Shown here piece by piece: positions 1 through 57,096 of a DNA stretch of 64,000 nucleotides (within the stretch, counting starts at the first letter, position 1; every line of letters begins with the position of its first letter). Source of the stretch: Planctomycetota bacterium. GTDB lineage: Bacteria > Planctomycetota > Phycisphaerae > Phycisphaerales > SM1A02. The position numbers and the translations under genes are program-made. The notes beneath the pieces were generated by a model. It was given only the letters and a program-made list of their open reading frames with translations, searched no databases and was not told the DNA's origin. The stretch lies in contig JADFFQ010000011.1 in the NCBI GenBank assembly GCA_022568135.1, forward strand, positions 1-64,000. Reading direction: 5' to 3'.

Positions 1-1116
1 AGCCTGCTCGCGCAAGGAAGCCGCCAACGCGTCCTGCACCGCCAGGTGTGTCGACTCGATGGGAACCGTCTGGCAACGGGGCAAGGCAAGGTTGGCGGCC
101 AGCTCCATCGCGTCTTCCAACGACGCCGCGGACGAATGGCGCGATGGCATCATCACCCCCAGGACGCCGTTCGGGCCCACGGCGGCGGCGGCGATGCAGG
201 CGGTCACCGCCGAGTCGATGCCGCCTGAGAGTCCGATGATCACCTTGTCGTTGGAGGTCTTGCGACAATAGTCGTCGACGCCGAGGACCAGAGCGTGGAA
301 TAGCTCAGAAATCGGTTCGACAGCGAAGCCCACGGATTCCAGTCCGTGGGCTTCCATCGGAATCTCAATTGTCTGCACCTGCTGGGTCCACCCCCCTAGC
401 ACTGCGATGATTGATCCGTCCGCGGCCACTACCACCGACCGGCCGTCAAAGATCAGATCATCGTTGGCCCCGACCTGCTGAACCGCGACAATCGGAACTT
501 TGTGCCTGGTCGCAGCAGCACGCAGCTGCTCCAGATGGCGCTGCCACTTGCCCAGGACAAATGGGTTGGCGTGGAGACTCAGAAGCACATCGCACCCCAG
601 CGCCGCCGTCTCCTGCACCGGATCAATCGGGTAGCTTCGCTCGGTTCGCACATCCTCCGCCCGCCAGAGATCCTCGCAGATCAGAAGTCCGAGGCGCCGA
701 CCAGCCGCTTCAACCACGCAGGGCTGGTCGCCGGGATCGAAGTATCGGTCCTCGTCGAAGACGTCGTAGCCGGGCAGCAGCCGCTTGTCGTACACGGCGA
801 CCACTTTCCCCGCCCGACAGACGGAAACACTGTTGCGAAGTGGGCGGGTTCCACCGGGGCATCGGCGGGGATGGCCGACAATCACGAGCAGATCGCCGGC
901 GTGACGGGCGATCTCGCCCACGGCCTGTTCACATGCCTCGACCACACCCGCTCGAAAGAGCAAATCCCTGGGCGGATAGCCGATTAGGCCAAGCTCGCCG
1001 GCCACAAGCACTTCCGCCCCGTCGCTGCGCGCCTGGTCAATCGCATGAAGCACGAGGCGAGTATTGCCAGCCACGTCGCCAACGGTCGGGTTGAGCTGAG
1101 CTAAGGCCAGGCGCAT
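1..1116 (-). CDS. nadE: Glutamine-dependent NAD(+) synthetase, 3' end cut by the window
   Basis: Catalyses the last step of NAD synthesis, amidating deamido-NAD with ammonia released from glutamine. The N-terminal half is a nitrilase-fold glutaminase (begins MRLALAQLNPTVGD; Glu in GELGLIGYPP, Lys in VYDKRLLPGY, Cys in LLICEDLW). The C-terminal half begins an ATP-pyrophosphatase synthetase domain with the P-loop SGGIDSA near residue 290 (about bases 215-240). The reading frame runs off position 1, so the rest of the synthetase domain lies outside the window. The start is ATG at 1116, preceded in frame by GTG at 1119. The linker between the domains carries an in-frame palindrome (see 326-353). 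Nearby pncA and pncB feed the same pathway. Family assignment is secure from the motifs; position 1 is only the window edge. Confidence 0.93.
   Translation of the reverse strand, partial: MRLALAQLNPTVGDVAGNTRLVLHAIDQARSDGAEVLVAGELGLIGYPPRDLLFRAGVVEACEQAVGEIARHAGDLLVIVGHPRRCPGGTRPLRNSVSVCRAGKVVAVYDKRLLPGYDVFDEDRYFDPGDQPCVVEAAGRRLGLLICEDLWRAEDVRTERSYPIDPVQETAALGCDVLLSLHANPFVLGKWQRHLEQLRAAATRHKVPIVAVQQVGANDDLIFDGRSVVVAADGSIIAVLGGWTQQVQTIEIPMEAHGLESVGFAVEPISELFHALVLGVDDYCRKTSNDKVIIGLSGGIDSAVTACIAAAAVGPNGVLGVMMPSRHSSAASLEDAMELAANLALPRCQTVPIESTHLAVQDALAASLREQA
326..353. repeat. Palindrome inside nadE, translated in frame
   Basis: Perfect 11-bp arms (AAGCCCACGGA at 326-336, TCCGTGGGCTT at 343-353) around a 6-base loop. 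In the nadE frame it reads as EAHGLESVGF, about residues 255-264, exactly in the linker between glutaminase and synthetase domains. Two imperfect copies lie in intergenic DNA at 51008-51031 and 56576-56603 with the same core. Confidence 0.8.
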
Positions 1117-46762: not shown

Positions 46763-49639
46763 ATGGCCACCCCACGAGCAGAGCTTTCGGTCAACGGATG
46801 GAACGGCGAATACCTCGACGGGCTGTACGAGCGCTGGTCGACTGATCCGAACGCCGTCGATGAGGCGTGGCGGCAGTTCTTCGAGGGTTTCGACTTGGGC
46901 GCGAGGCGAGTCACAGGCGACGGCGAGCTTGCCCCTGTGGCCGGGTCCGCCCTGGAGATCGCCCACACCAAGCAAGGCCAGGTCGATGATCTGATCTATC
47001 ACTACCGCGACATCGGTCATCTGGCCGCCAGGCTGGATCCTCTGGGCCGCGAGCGATCAGCTCGCCCGCAACTGGCGCTTGAATCATTCCGGCTGGCGGA
47101 ACAGGACCTCGATCAGTCGCTTGATCCGGGTGATCTGCCACTGGACAACCCGGCGACACTACGCGCTATTCTCCAACTGCTTCAGGACACTTACTGCCGC
47201 AGAATCGGCGCCGAATTCATGCACATCCAGGACCCCCGGCAGCGTCGATGGTTGCAGCAGCGGATGGAAACGGTGCGCGGCCGACCGGGCATGACGCACG
47301 AACAAAGGATGCGCATCCTGCGTGAGCTTTCCGAAGCCGATGCGTTCGAGAACTTCGTCCACACCCGCTATACCGGGGCGAAGCGGTTCGGCATCGATGG
47401 TGGTGAGTCGATCATCCCGTTGCTCGATGAGATCATCGAGCAGGGGCCGGTCAACGATGTGAAGGAGTTCACCATCGGCATGACCCACCGCGGCCGGCTC
47501 AACGTGCTGGTGAACATCTTGCACAAGACGTACGACCAGATCTTCACCGAGTTTTCCGAAGCGTGGACGGAGGATTTCATTGCCGGCGGCGGTGATGTGA
47601 AGTATCACCGCGGCTACAGCAGCGATCACATCACCGAATCCGGAGAGACGATTCGCCTGACGCTCTCGCCCAACCCATCTCACCTGGAGTTCGTGGGGCC
47701 GGTGGTGCTGGGGCGGGCACGCGCCAAGCAGCGCCTCCGCAACGACAGCGAGCGACGACAGTGCGTGCCGATCCTGATCCACGGCGACGCCTCATTCCCC
47801 GCTCAGGGCGTCGTGGCCGAGTGTCTGAACATGGTCCGACTCGACGGCTACACCGTCGGCGGAGCGATCCACATCATCATCAACAATCAGATCGGCTTTA
47901 CGACCAACCCCAACGACGCCCATAGCGGGACCTACTGCACCGACATTGCCAAGATGACCGAAGCCCCAATCCTTCACGTCAACGGCGACGATCCGGAGGC
48001 GTGCGTCTTTGCCGCCAAGCTGGCGCTGGAGTATCGCCAGACCTTCAAGAACGATGTGGTCATCGACCTGTGGTGCTATCGCAGATACGGTCACAACGAG
48101 GGCGATGAGCCGAATTTCACCCAGCCGGCAATGTACGCAAGGATCAGGAAGCAGCAGCCGGTGCTGCAAAGGTACGTCGAGCAACTCATCGACCAGGGCG
48201 CGATCACGCGCGAGCAGTTCGATGCGCTATATGACCAGCTCAAGGGTGAACTCGACGCCGCCCAGACCCGCACCAAGGAAACGCCGGTCAAGCCTACGGT
48301 GAAGGCGTTCGGCTCGGTGTGGGCGGGGGTGACGGAAAAGTACTCATCCGCCCACGTGCAGACTTCGGTCGCCAAAGAGCGGCTCAACGCGGTCGCCCGT
48401 GCTCTGGGATCGGTCCCGGAGGGGTTTGTTCCGCACCGGAAGCTGAACAAGCTGCTTGCGTACCGGCGCGAGGCCGTGGCGAAGAATCTGCCGCTGGACT
48501 GGGCGATGGGTGAGCTGTTGGCCTACGGAACCCTACTGCAGGACAACTATGCCGTTCGGCTGACCGGCCAGGACGTCGAGCGCGGCACGTTCAGCCATCG
48601 CCATGCCGTGCTGTTCGATCAGGCCACGACCGGGGAGAGATACGACGCACTGAACCACATCCAGCCTGAACAGGCGCGGTTCTGCATCCACAACAGTCCG
48701 CTCACTGAGTCGGCCTGCGTGGGCTTCGAGTACGGCTATTCGCTGGGCGATCCGCAGATGCTGGTGATCTGGGAGGCGCAGTTCGGCGATTTTGCCAACG
48801 GTGCTCAGGTCTACTTCGATCAGTTCATCGCCTCTGCTGAAGTGAAGTGGCAGCGCTACAGCGGGCTGACCCTGTTCCTGCCACACGGCTATGAAGGCCA
48901 GGGTCCGGAGCACTCGTCCGCCCGGCCGGAGCGGTTCCTGCAATTGTGCGCCGGCAACAACATGCAGGTGATCAACCCCACCACCCCGGCCCAGATGTTC
49001 CACGTGCTTCGCCGGCAGATGAAGCGGAACTTCCGCAAACCACTGATCATCCTGACGCCCAAGAGCCTGCTGCGGCACCCCAAAGCCGTCAGTAGCGTGG
49101 ACGAGTTGGTCGCCGGGCGGTTCCACCTGGTGCTGGACGATCCGCTGGTCTCCGATTCCAAGGCGATCGCCCGTGTTGTGCTGTGCTGCGGCAAGGTCTA
49201 CTACGACCTGGTTGCACATCGAGACAGGGTGGGCTGCGATGATGTGGCGGTGGTCCGTATCGAGCAGCTCTACCCCCTGCCTGAGCCAGAGCTGAACGCG
49301 ATTCTGAATCGCTACGGTTCGGCTGGGGAATTCATCTGGGTCCAAGAGGAGCCGAAGAACATGGGCGCGTACCGGTTCCTGAAGACGACGCTGCTGGAAC
49401 GCCTCGATCTCGATCTTTCATACGTGGGCCGAGACGAACACGCCTCGCCCGCGGTGGCGTCGTCCAAAATGCACCTTCAGGAGCAGGAAAAGATCATGAT
49501 TACCGCCATCGGTTTGGCCGACACTGAGGGTGATTCCCACATTGCCGAGACCGGCCACAACATGGTTGACGGAGCCGGGCTGTCCGACAGAGCCGGACTG
49601 TCCTCGGCCTCCACCGGCCCGGGGACGAGCCGGCTCTGA
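46763..49639 (+). CDS. sucA: 2-oxoglutarate dehydrogenase E1 component
   Basis: A 958-residue thiamine-diphosphate enzyme decarboxylating 2-oxoglutarate in the TCA cycle. The N-terminal segment ([27 protein letters not shown]) binds E2. TPP site GDASFPAQG...[34 protein letters not shown], and the transketolase-like C-terminal half ([23 protein letters not shown]). Start ATG 46763 (MATPRAELS) is chosen over an upstream in-frame ATG at 46667. Followed after 29 bp by sucB. A lipoamide dehydrogenase gene is not seen here. Confidence 0.96.
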
Positions 49640-49668: not shown

Positions 49669-50931
49669 ATGCCTGTTCCGATCACCATCCCCAGCCCCGG
49701 CGAGTCCATCACTGATGTGGTGGTCGGTCCGTGGCACAAAGCGTCAGGCGAATGGGTCCAGAAGGACGAGATCATCGTCGAGATCGAATCGGACAAGGTC
49801 ACGCTGGAAATCCCGGCTCCCGAATCAGGCCTGCTGCATAGGGTTGCCGAGGACGGCGCCGAAATGACGGTCGGCGACGTGATCGGCAGCATCGAGCCGG
49901 CGGCCCAACGCCCGACGGCCGCCACGGTTCAACCAGTGACCGCCGCTCAATCCAACGCAGCGCCGGCGCCTTCGGCCCCAACCGGCGATGGCGAAAGCAA
50001 AGCGACGTCCGTCGCCCGAAAGTTGGCTGCGGACAGAGGCGTGGACCTGGCTCACCTCGCGGGCACCGGCTCCTCCGGCCGAATCACCAAGTCCGATGTC
50101 CTCGCCGCAGCTGCGCCCCAAGCCGGACCTGATCCGCCGCGGCGGACCGCGGCGGACGAGGAAGGTCCGGGTCTCTCCACCCACCTGGCACCGACGCCCT
50201 CAGCCGTCCCAGCGCCCGGCGATCGGGCCGTTCGCCGCCAGCGAATGAGCAAGTTACGCCGGCGCGTCGCTGAGCGGTTGGTGGCCGCCCAGCACACCGC
50301 GGCCATGCTCACCACCTTCAACGAAGCGGACATGAGCGGGGTCATCCGCCTGCGAAAGCAGCACAAGGAAGAGTTCCTCCAGAAGCACGGCGTCGGCCTG
50401 GGATTCATGTCGTTCTTTGTCAAGGCGTGTGTATCAGCCTTGCGGCAGTTCCCGCGCGTCAACGCCTACATCGTCGGCAATGAGATCGAATACCACGACT
50501 ACGTGGACATCTCAATTGCGGTCGGCACTGAGAAGGGCCTGGTCGTGCCCGTGATCCGAAACGCTGAGGTGATGTCGTTCGCTGATATTGAAAAGACCAT
50601 CCTCGATCTTGCAACCCGTGCGCGAGAAAGCAAACTGGCGTTGGAGGAAATGACCGGCGGCACGTTCACGATCTCCAACGGCGGCGTCTACGGCTCCATG
50701 CTCTCCACGCCCATCCTCAACCCGCCGCAGTCCGGCATCCTCGGCATGCACAACATCACCAACCGCCCCGTCGAGGACCCCGACACCCCCGGCCAGGTCG
50801 TCCTCCGCCCGATGATGTATCTCGCGCTCAGCTACGATCACCGCATCGTGGACGGCGCCGAAGCTGTCGGTTTCCTCGTGCATGTGAAGAACTGCATCGA
50901 GAACCCCCAGCGCATGATGCTCGGGTTGTGA
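49669..50931 (+). CDS. sucB: Dihydrolipoyllysine succinyltransferase (2-oxoglutarate dehydrogenase E2)
   Basis: A 420-residue E2 subunit. Lipoyl domain with the modified Lys in [15 protein letters not shown] (about residue 44), a Pro/Ala linker, an E3-binding domain ([33 protein letters not shown]), a second linker and the catalytic domain ending [17 protein letters not shown]. The second linker includes an in-frame palindrome (residues about 152-169, see 50122-50173). Paired with sucA. Confidence 0.95.
50122..50173. repeat. Palindromic element inside sucB, translated in frame
   Basis: Arms CCGGACC (50123-50129) and GGTCCGG (50164-50170) enclose inner TCCGCC/GGCGGA arms and a repeated CGCGGCGGAC. 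It encodes [15 protein letters not shown] in the linker before the catalytic domain. The reverse complement of the intergenic hairpin at 8838-8879 shares GGCGGACGAGGAAG and the flanking CCGGGTC. Confidence 0.7.
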
Positions 50932-50947: not shown

Positions 50948-50970
50948 ATAGCCCCCGGCTTGCCGGGGGC
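50948..50970. repeat. TAGCCCCCGGC palindrome after sucB
   Basis: TAG-CCCCCGGC-TT-GCCGGGGG-CC, a perfect 8-bp stem starting 17 bp past the sucB stop. Without a T-run it is not a typical intrinsic terminator. Confidence 0.65.
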
Positions 50971-51007
50971 CAATGATCCGCAACCCGCACACGATTTGAT
51001 GAACAAA

Positions 51008-51031
51008 GCCCACGGACTCGAGTCGGTGGGC
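51008..51031. repeat. GCCCACGGACT palindrome, intergenic relative of the nadE element
   Basis: GCCCACGGACT-CG-AGTCGGTGGGC, 11-bp arms with one mismatch. Same core as the translated copy at 326-353. Confidence 0.7.
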
Positions 51032-51106
51032 GTCTTGCTCTTGAAACCGCCGGGTTCTGGGTATGTTGTGGCGGCGCTCAGCGTGCCGATCCGCGCAGCG
51101 CGGAGG

Positions 51107-53646: not shown

Positions 53647-54420
53647 ATGACACGTGAAAACAAGGTGGCTCTGGTGGTTGGGTTCGGCCTGATCCTCTTG
53701 GTCGGAATCCTCATTTCCGATCACCTTTCCGACGCCCGAACTCAAGAGCCCGCCAACCTCGTTCCGCCCAGCGCCCTGACTGCAACCCCGACACCCCACC
53801 TCGGGCCGGAACTGATTGACTTGCAGATCCACGGCGACGTCTTGGGCCCCCCACGAAGAAGCGAACTGTCGCAGGGGCCGCCGGCGGTTACGACGACTCA
53901 ATTCCCGCGCCCAACCGCGAACACCCCGCAACAGCGCGAATCTCGCATCGACCCTCCTATAATTCGCATGCCCACCCTTGGGGAGGGTTCACCGCCCGCA
54001 ATCGAGCCGACCTCAAATCAGGCCGGCGAGGTTTCCATCACATTCCACACGGTGCGACCGGGCGAATCGCTGTCATCAATCTGCCAGCGGTACTATGGAG
54101 ACGTTCTGACGGTAACAGCGCTCGCACGATACAACGACATTTCGGACCCCAACAAGATCCGTGCCGGCCGAAAACTGCGCATCCCCAAGGCCGACGCCCT
54201 GGCTCGCAACGACCGAAGCAACCCCGCCGCCTCCTCCGGCAGCGCCGACCGATCTCGCACGTACACCATCAAGCGGGGTGACTCGCTCTCGGTGGTCGCC
54301 CAGCGCCTGCTTCATTCCGCCGGCCGATGGCGGCAGCTTTACGAACTGAACCGCAACGTGATCAGTGATCCGGACACCCTGCACGTTGGAACGGTGATCA
54401 AAGTTCCGCCCAGTCCTTAG
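53647..54420 (+). CDS. Membrane-anchored protein with two LysM domains
   Basis: A 257-residue protein: N-terminal membrane anchor (VALVVGFGLILLVGILIS, about 6-23), a Pro-rich linker, then LysM 1 (HTVRPGESLSSICQRYYGD to RKLRIPKAD, about 130-180) and LysM 2 (YTIKRGDSLSVVAQRLL to TVIKVPP, about 207-255). LysM binds peptidoglycan glycans. ATG lies 4 bp after the rsmH stop, inside a dcw-type cluster, so a role in septal or wall biogenesis is likely by context. It occupies the slot where ftsL usually follows rsmH. Its stop TAG is the first three bases of a palindrome. Confidence 0.88.
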   Translation: MTRENKVALVVGFGLILLVGILISDHLSDARTQEPANLVPPSALTATPTPHLGPELIDLQIHGDVLGPPRRSELSQGPPAVTTTQFPRPTANTPQQRESRIDPPIIRMPTLGEGSPPAIEPTSNQAGEVSITFHTVRPGESLSSICQRYYGDVLTVTALARYNDISDPNKIRAGRKLRIPKADALARNDRSNPAASSGSADRSRTYTIKRGDSLSVVAQRLLHSAGRWRQLYELNRNVISDPDTLHVGTVIKVPPSP

Positions 54421-54440
54421 CCCCCGGCTCTGCCGGGGGG
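54418..54440. repeat. TAGCCCCCGGC palindrome that supplies the LysM gene stop codon
   Basis: TAG-CCCCCGGC-TCT-GCCGGGGG. The TAG at 54418-54420 is the stop of the LysM gene. A degraded repeat of its right half follows at about 54440-54454. Confidence 0.65.
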
Positions 54441-54486
54441 CTCTGCCAGGGGGCCGAAGCCCGGTCGCGAAGGAAAACAGCCTGCC

Positions 54487-56575: not shown

Positions 56576-56603
56576 AAGCGCACGGACTCGATCCCGTGGG
56601 CTT
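56576..56603. repeat. AAGC(C/G)CACGG palindrome after ftsI, relative of the nadE element
   Basis: AAGCGCACGG / CCGTGGGCTT, 10-bp arms with one mismatch, 3 bp past the ftsI stop. Same core as 326-353 and 51008-51031. Confidence 0.7.
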
Positions 56604-56942: not shown

Positions 56943-56967
56943 TAGCCGCGGATGCATATCCGCGGGC
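56943..56967. repeat. TTAGCCGCGGAT palindrome
   Basis: Arms CCGCGGAT / ATCCGCGG (56946-56953, 56958-56965) around GCAT, with TAG before and GCTC after. A partial relative is seen at about 46574-46597. Confidence 0.6.
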
Positions 56968-57096
56968 TCGATTCTGCGGCGATCCGGGCCCCCGCATGTG
57001 GGCGTACAATCAAACCAACGGCTGGGCAGTCTTGATCACCGCGTATCGGCCCGAACCCGACCGCTGGGCCGACTTCCGTCAGAGGAGACCGCAGGC

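Follow-up and report, generated by a model that had tools for sequence, protein, structure and literature searches.

The nadE gene at the start of the window, the whole stretch of 64,000 nucleotides that was analysed, codes for an unusual peptide within an essential enzyme, and the DNA that encodes this peptide is a palindrome; the question is what kind of element it represents. The gene, for a glutamine-dependent NAD+ synthetase (PDB 5kha, E 6e-58), occupies positions 1 to 1119 on the minus strand, is truncated at base 1, where the contig ends, and has its CDS start at 1116/1119. A sequence-only reading had described a perfect palindrome with 11-bp arms at 326-353. The palindrome is indeed exact, but it extends from 325 to 354 (GAAGCCCACGGA-TTCCAG-TCCGTGGGCTTC), with arms of 12 bp, one more than had been described. 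This REP-like sequence, GAAGCCCACGGACTGGAATCCGTGGGCTTC with a 24-bp core of the form GCCC...GGGC, lies on the coding strand in the context ...M-EAHGLESVGF-AVEP..., which confirmed that EAHGLESVGF is read in frame. The predicted RNA fold of the palindrome was strong (-22.5 kcal/mol, z -7.2), and dinucleotide shuffles of the window gave zero palindrome matches.

A dispersed family of palindromes

Genome counts were derived from pattern searches and sequence stretches, and comprised 8 perfect 24-bp palindromes (0 in the control) and 49 family copies at three or fewer mismatches (1 in the control), which bears out the proposal of a dispersed palindromic repeat. The subfamilies (GCCCACGGACTCGAGTCCGTGGGC, GCCCAGGGAAAGCTTTCCCTGGGC, GCCCACGGCGTGCACGCCGTGGGC, and GCCCACGGGCTCGAGCCCGTGGGC) change both arms together. 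Among 28 distinct versions, drawn from copies in this genome and in its relatives, 93% of the cells paired, double changes occurred in 10 of the 13 pairs, and the covariation score was 0.415, as against 0.104 in shuffles. A scan of 85,000 species found at least 106 stretches, nearly all of them in Planctomycetota. The NadE palindrome is one member of a family dispersed in this planctomycete and its relatives. The family core contains no stop codon in any of the six frames, and its length of 24 bp is a multiple of three. A GTAG/CGTC foot was found in 0 of 49 copies in this genome and 0 of 109 in the phylum; a CnGA foot accompanied 11 of the 49 copies and 7 in the control, little over background. 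At most copies, A precedes and T follows the stem (AA/TT). The core sequences were not found in the literature searched.

As judged with our own gene caller, 42 of the 49 copies lie clearly between genes (20 at convergent, 20 at tandem, and 2 at divergent junctions), and 1 more lies at a contig edge. Most are located 20-85 bp past stop codons (median distance 39 bp). The phylum sample contained 31 tandem, 26 convergent, and 5 divergent copies (median 37 bp); 8 gene-internal calls across the phylum were read by hand, and 5 were judged to be false starts or spurious antisense frames. Six copies in this genome were called inside genes, of which three are truly coding (nadE on C52, nadE on C83, and purL on C81) and three lie at gene ends or in false starts. 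The search and tally that the sequence-only reading had suggested thus gave 49 copies, 3 of them coding; all three reading frames are represented among the coding copies. Coding linkers are tolerated by the family, not preferred. The tolerance that had been proposed holds, but the preference does not, as the coding copies number just 3 of 49, one of them on a contig possibly from another strain, in a genome that is approximately 88% coding.

The two intergenic near-copies reported in the window are real, with 2-3 mismatches each. One (51007-51032) lies between two convergent genes, 75 bp past the stop codon of one and 74 bp from the other, and the second near-copy (56577-56602) begins a few bases past the TGA of the upstream gene. 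Both are decayed versions of the family; at the orthologous sites in the congeners G001-G003, other versions occur, mostly more intact. The AHGL frame that they share with nadE has little meaning, the core being stop-free in all six frames.

Other repeats were also observed. Dispersed hairpins at window positions 50950-50971, 54418-54442, and 56943-56968 (AGCCCCCGG..., TAGCCGCGGATGCATATCCGCGGGCT) have many copies in G001-G003 and form further REP-like families, and a segment at 50114-50174, inside the gene at 49669-50931, matches approximately 10 places in G002 at 76-100% identity. Elsewhere in the genome, genes ending in LLANWGPCP on C12, C25, C73, and C79 share near-identical 3' flanks that include a AGCCCAGGG palindrome, which suggests exchange between paralogous gene ends. 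The changes at C73:15415 were considered and set aside, being better explained by such exchange.

The NadE linker and other protein loops

The nadE site is palindromic in this genome (G000), in G001 and G002, and on contig C83, and is decayed in G003. Contig C83, which belongs to the same assembly, carries AAGCCCACGGCGTGCACGCCGTGGGCTT at the same nadE codons, and this type is present in G003 in a decayed state. Sister lineages carry a different family palindrome at the same position. G006, from another genus, retains AHGVHA at this site. The second nadE (C83, 11200-12321) is 91.8% identical in DNA to the window nadE and 94.5% identical to that of G003; more than one strain may be represented in the assembly.

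A clean insertion in NadE, as had been proposed, was not borne out by the alignment of relatives. The distance from FDGxS to GxSGG is 72 aa here with the palindrome, 72 aa in the sister genus without it, and 67-81 aa elsewhere, and deletion of the 8-10 residues would leave a linker shorter than every measured homologue. Distant NadE proteins of known structure align with an offset of only 1-2 residues. Linker length was therefore rejected as a criterion for insertion, being unchanged without the palindrome. We infer the insertion from family identity rather than regard it as shown, because the linker is not shortened where the palindrome is missing and the offsets of distant NadE are small.

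A second coding copy occurs in a loop of PurL and is common to G001 and G003. It reads SPRIPIRG, in a frame differing from that in NadE, and a copy within a RAYT transposase reads PTDSNPWA; the AHGL frame is thus not a property of the element, as had been supposed. In G002 (C121; L243, L294), the PurL loop contains an in-frame 49-bp double hairpin where congeners carry the nadE-type palindrome, and partial copies of this double hairpin number approximately 11 in G002, as many in G003, and 4-5 in both G000 and G001. G006 has GCCCAGGCATAGCCATGCCTGGGC at the same PurL codons, and that core also flanks a RAYT in G027. One PurL loop has been used by three different palindromic elements, which repeats the NadE pattern. 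Two unrelated repeats, the double hairpin and the nadE-type palindrome, share this one protein loop. Furthermore, a family copy in CarB of a Phycisphaerae genome forms a 13-14-residue insertion relative to the E. coli enzyme, and a copy in L129 lies near the N-terminus of a protein read by eye as a squalene/phytoene-synthase relative. In the window, a double hairpin at 49588-49638 (CAGAGCCGG...CCGGCTCTG) resembles the G002 PurL element and supplies the last codons and stop of the gene at 46763-49639.

A RAYT transposase partner

Matching palindromes lie within approximately 75 bp of RAYT genes, which code for small, divergent HUH-Y1 transposases, in this genome and in its relatives. The RAYT at C51:63954-64529 is bracketed by two copies of AGCCCAGGGAAAGCTTTCCCTGGGCT, both perfect palindromes. 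In G003, at the site orthologous to C34:20956 of this genome, two palindromes bracket a 637-bp segment coding for an HUH-Y1 protein, and L111 shares this arrangement with perfect palindromes. The RAYTs of L111 and L307 are bracketed by copies of AGCCCACGGGCTCGAGCCCGTGGGCT, one base pair off the nadE type, and those of L326, L328, and L329 have the palindrome AGCCCATGCCGTGCACGGCATGGGCT. Among the relatives, the palindrome on the flanks differs from one RAYT clade to the next. G026, from another family, has a RAYT that is 71% identical to that of this genome; the palindromes on its flanks are identical, and 19 copies occur in the G026 genome. In five RAYTs (L192, L313, L314, L317, and L318), a palindrome is read in frame between HxH and the Tyr motif. 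RAYTs were present in 14 of 15 palindrome-bearing genomes and in 5 of 26 others (41 genomes; Fisher p 7e-6), and with one genome per genus the association gave p 2e-4, both values being uncorrected for phylogeny.

HxH and Y are invariant in these proteins, which bear the signature Y[VI]xxHxxxGA. This signature is absent from the published RAYT subclass table. The NCBIfam model REP_Tyr_transpos matched weakly (E 9e-5), NF047646 gave 14-22 bits against a cut-off of 80, and Foldseek on a model of modest quality (pLDDT 70) retrieved the IS608/ISDra2 TnpA and the REP-bound TnpA_REP 4er8. Pfam Y1_Tnp was rejected as a test for RAYTs: its 12 hits in the genome include none near this palindrome, and the actual partners fall short of its threshold (best 15.5 against 23).

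In this genome, no RAYT was found with the exact core of the nadE type. The RAYT with the palindrome nearest to the nadE type occurs in G002, G003, and L111, and is missing from the corresponding locus here, where one palindrome is left; the nadE copy may therefore be a relic in this genome. The locus at C34:20956 was also considered as a RAYT insertion in G003 and rejected, as L111 has both the locus and the RAYT, and loss from this genome is simpler.

Origin of the nadE palindrome

The sequence-only reading had likened the element to the palindromic elements of Rickettsia, but direct evidence points instead to a REP/RAYT system, in which RAYT genes are flanked by matching palindromes. The nadE palindrome very probably belongs to a family of REPs in Planctomycetota that is tied to a RAYT, an HUH-Y1 single-strand transposase. 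The RAYT would recognise the hairpin in single-stranded DNA, cut it, and paste copies elsewhere. Most copies would settle just past stop codons, where the damage is slight, and some would enter loops of genes and survive there thanks to the 24-bp core, whose length is divisible by three and which lacks stops in all six frames. The nadE element would be at least as old as the genus, and would have been edited or swapped between palindrome types with the frame kept; it would now code for an expendable interdomain linker, the encoded peptide being presumably neutral. Within the genus, clean empty sites were sought and none was found: the palindrome was present in all alignable members of approximately 14 orthologous sites, and at G003:C48:4545 one side has no alignable flank in this genome. 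These comparisons give no sign of recent movement, as no copy was seen that one congener has and another cleanly lacks.

Gene-end hairpins could alternatively act as bidirectional intrinsic terminators that resemble one another through selection on the stem and are not mobile. The location of most copies 20-85 bp past stops, with half at convergent junctions, and the A before and T after the stem agree with this. It is nevertheless unlikely: the same 24-mer recurs amid unrelated flanks, copies lie in frame in nadE, purL, and carB and also within RAYT genes, the palindrome sequences are RAYT-specific, and the window copy has no T-tract and no terminator call. Copies may still act as terminators after landing. 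It is still less probable that the nadE hairpin was kept as a functional mRNA element, such as a pause site placed between the glutaminase domain and the synthetase domain. The palindrome is retained through arm changes among congeners and folds strongly as RNA in G000 and C83, but it is decayed in G003 (z -1.8) and absent in other genera, and exchange explains the arm changes, since these correspond to other types of REP in the genome. A repeat of the Rickettsia type (RPE), specialised in coding linkers, would account for the in-frame copies in nadE and purL, as with RPEs in Rickettsia genes (PMC3733652); this is highly improbable, given that just 3 of 49 copies are coding, far under the 88% coding fraction of the genome, that a RAYT partner exists, and that the CGTC foot reported for RPE-4/6-type REPs (PMC3733652) is missing. 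The likeness, drawn by description, lies in in-frame palindromic segments in working genes, but here coding copies are rare and have a RAYT partner.

Among the closest known systems, the GTAG-type REPtrons (PMC3733652, PMC6006769) likewise combine a short palindrome with an HUH-Y1 transposase flanked by matching palindromes; each RAYT has its own type of REP, most copies are intergenic on the 3' side, and in-frame copies occur in genes and, between HuH and Y, in the RAYT. They have YxxNP and a GTAG foot, whereas here Y[VI]xxHxxxGA, no GTAG/CGTC foot, and a fully symmetric palindrome were found. TnpA_Y1 class 3 of Planctomycetes/Acidobacteria (PMC6006769) shares the phylum, extended N-terminal conservation, a length of approximately 180 aa, atypical hairpins, and a W[TA]-like motif, but its published features are YV..EQ (Y----Q) and a CnGA foot, in contrast to Y..H..GA and a CnGA foot near control levels here. 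In-frame REPs and different REPs near one recB site have already been published (PMC3733652), as has an in-frame palindrome between HuH and Y inside a RAYT of another subclass (PMC6006769). Against the literature searched, what appears to be new here is a tagless, symmetric, stop-free REP family and a RAYT clade with a tyrosine motif outside the published subclasses. More tentatively, an undescribed Planctomycetota RAYT clade may drive foot-less symmetric REPs with a frame-neutral, stop-free 24-bp core, which repeatedly colonise loops of NadE, PurL, CarB, and the RAYT itself and swap types at the same codon.

These results place an odd peptide of an essential enzyme within a mobile-DNA system, and indicate that a REP can serve as the source of a protein linker. 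With different REP types in orthologous loops of one genus, REP exchange and protein tolerance become directly testable, and the foot-less palindromes raise the question of how such RAYTs pick their cut sites.
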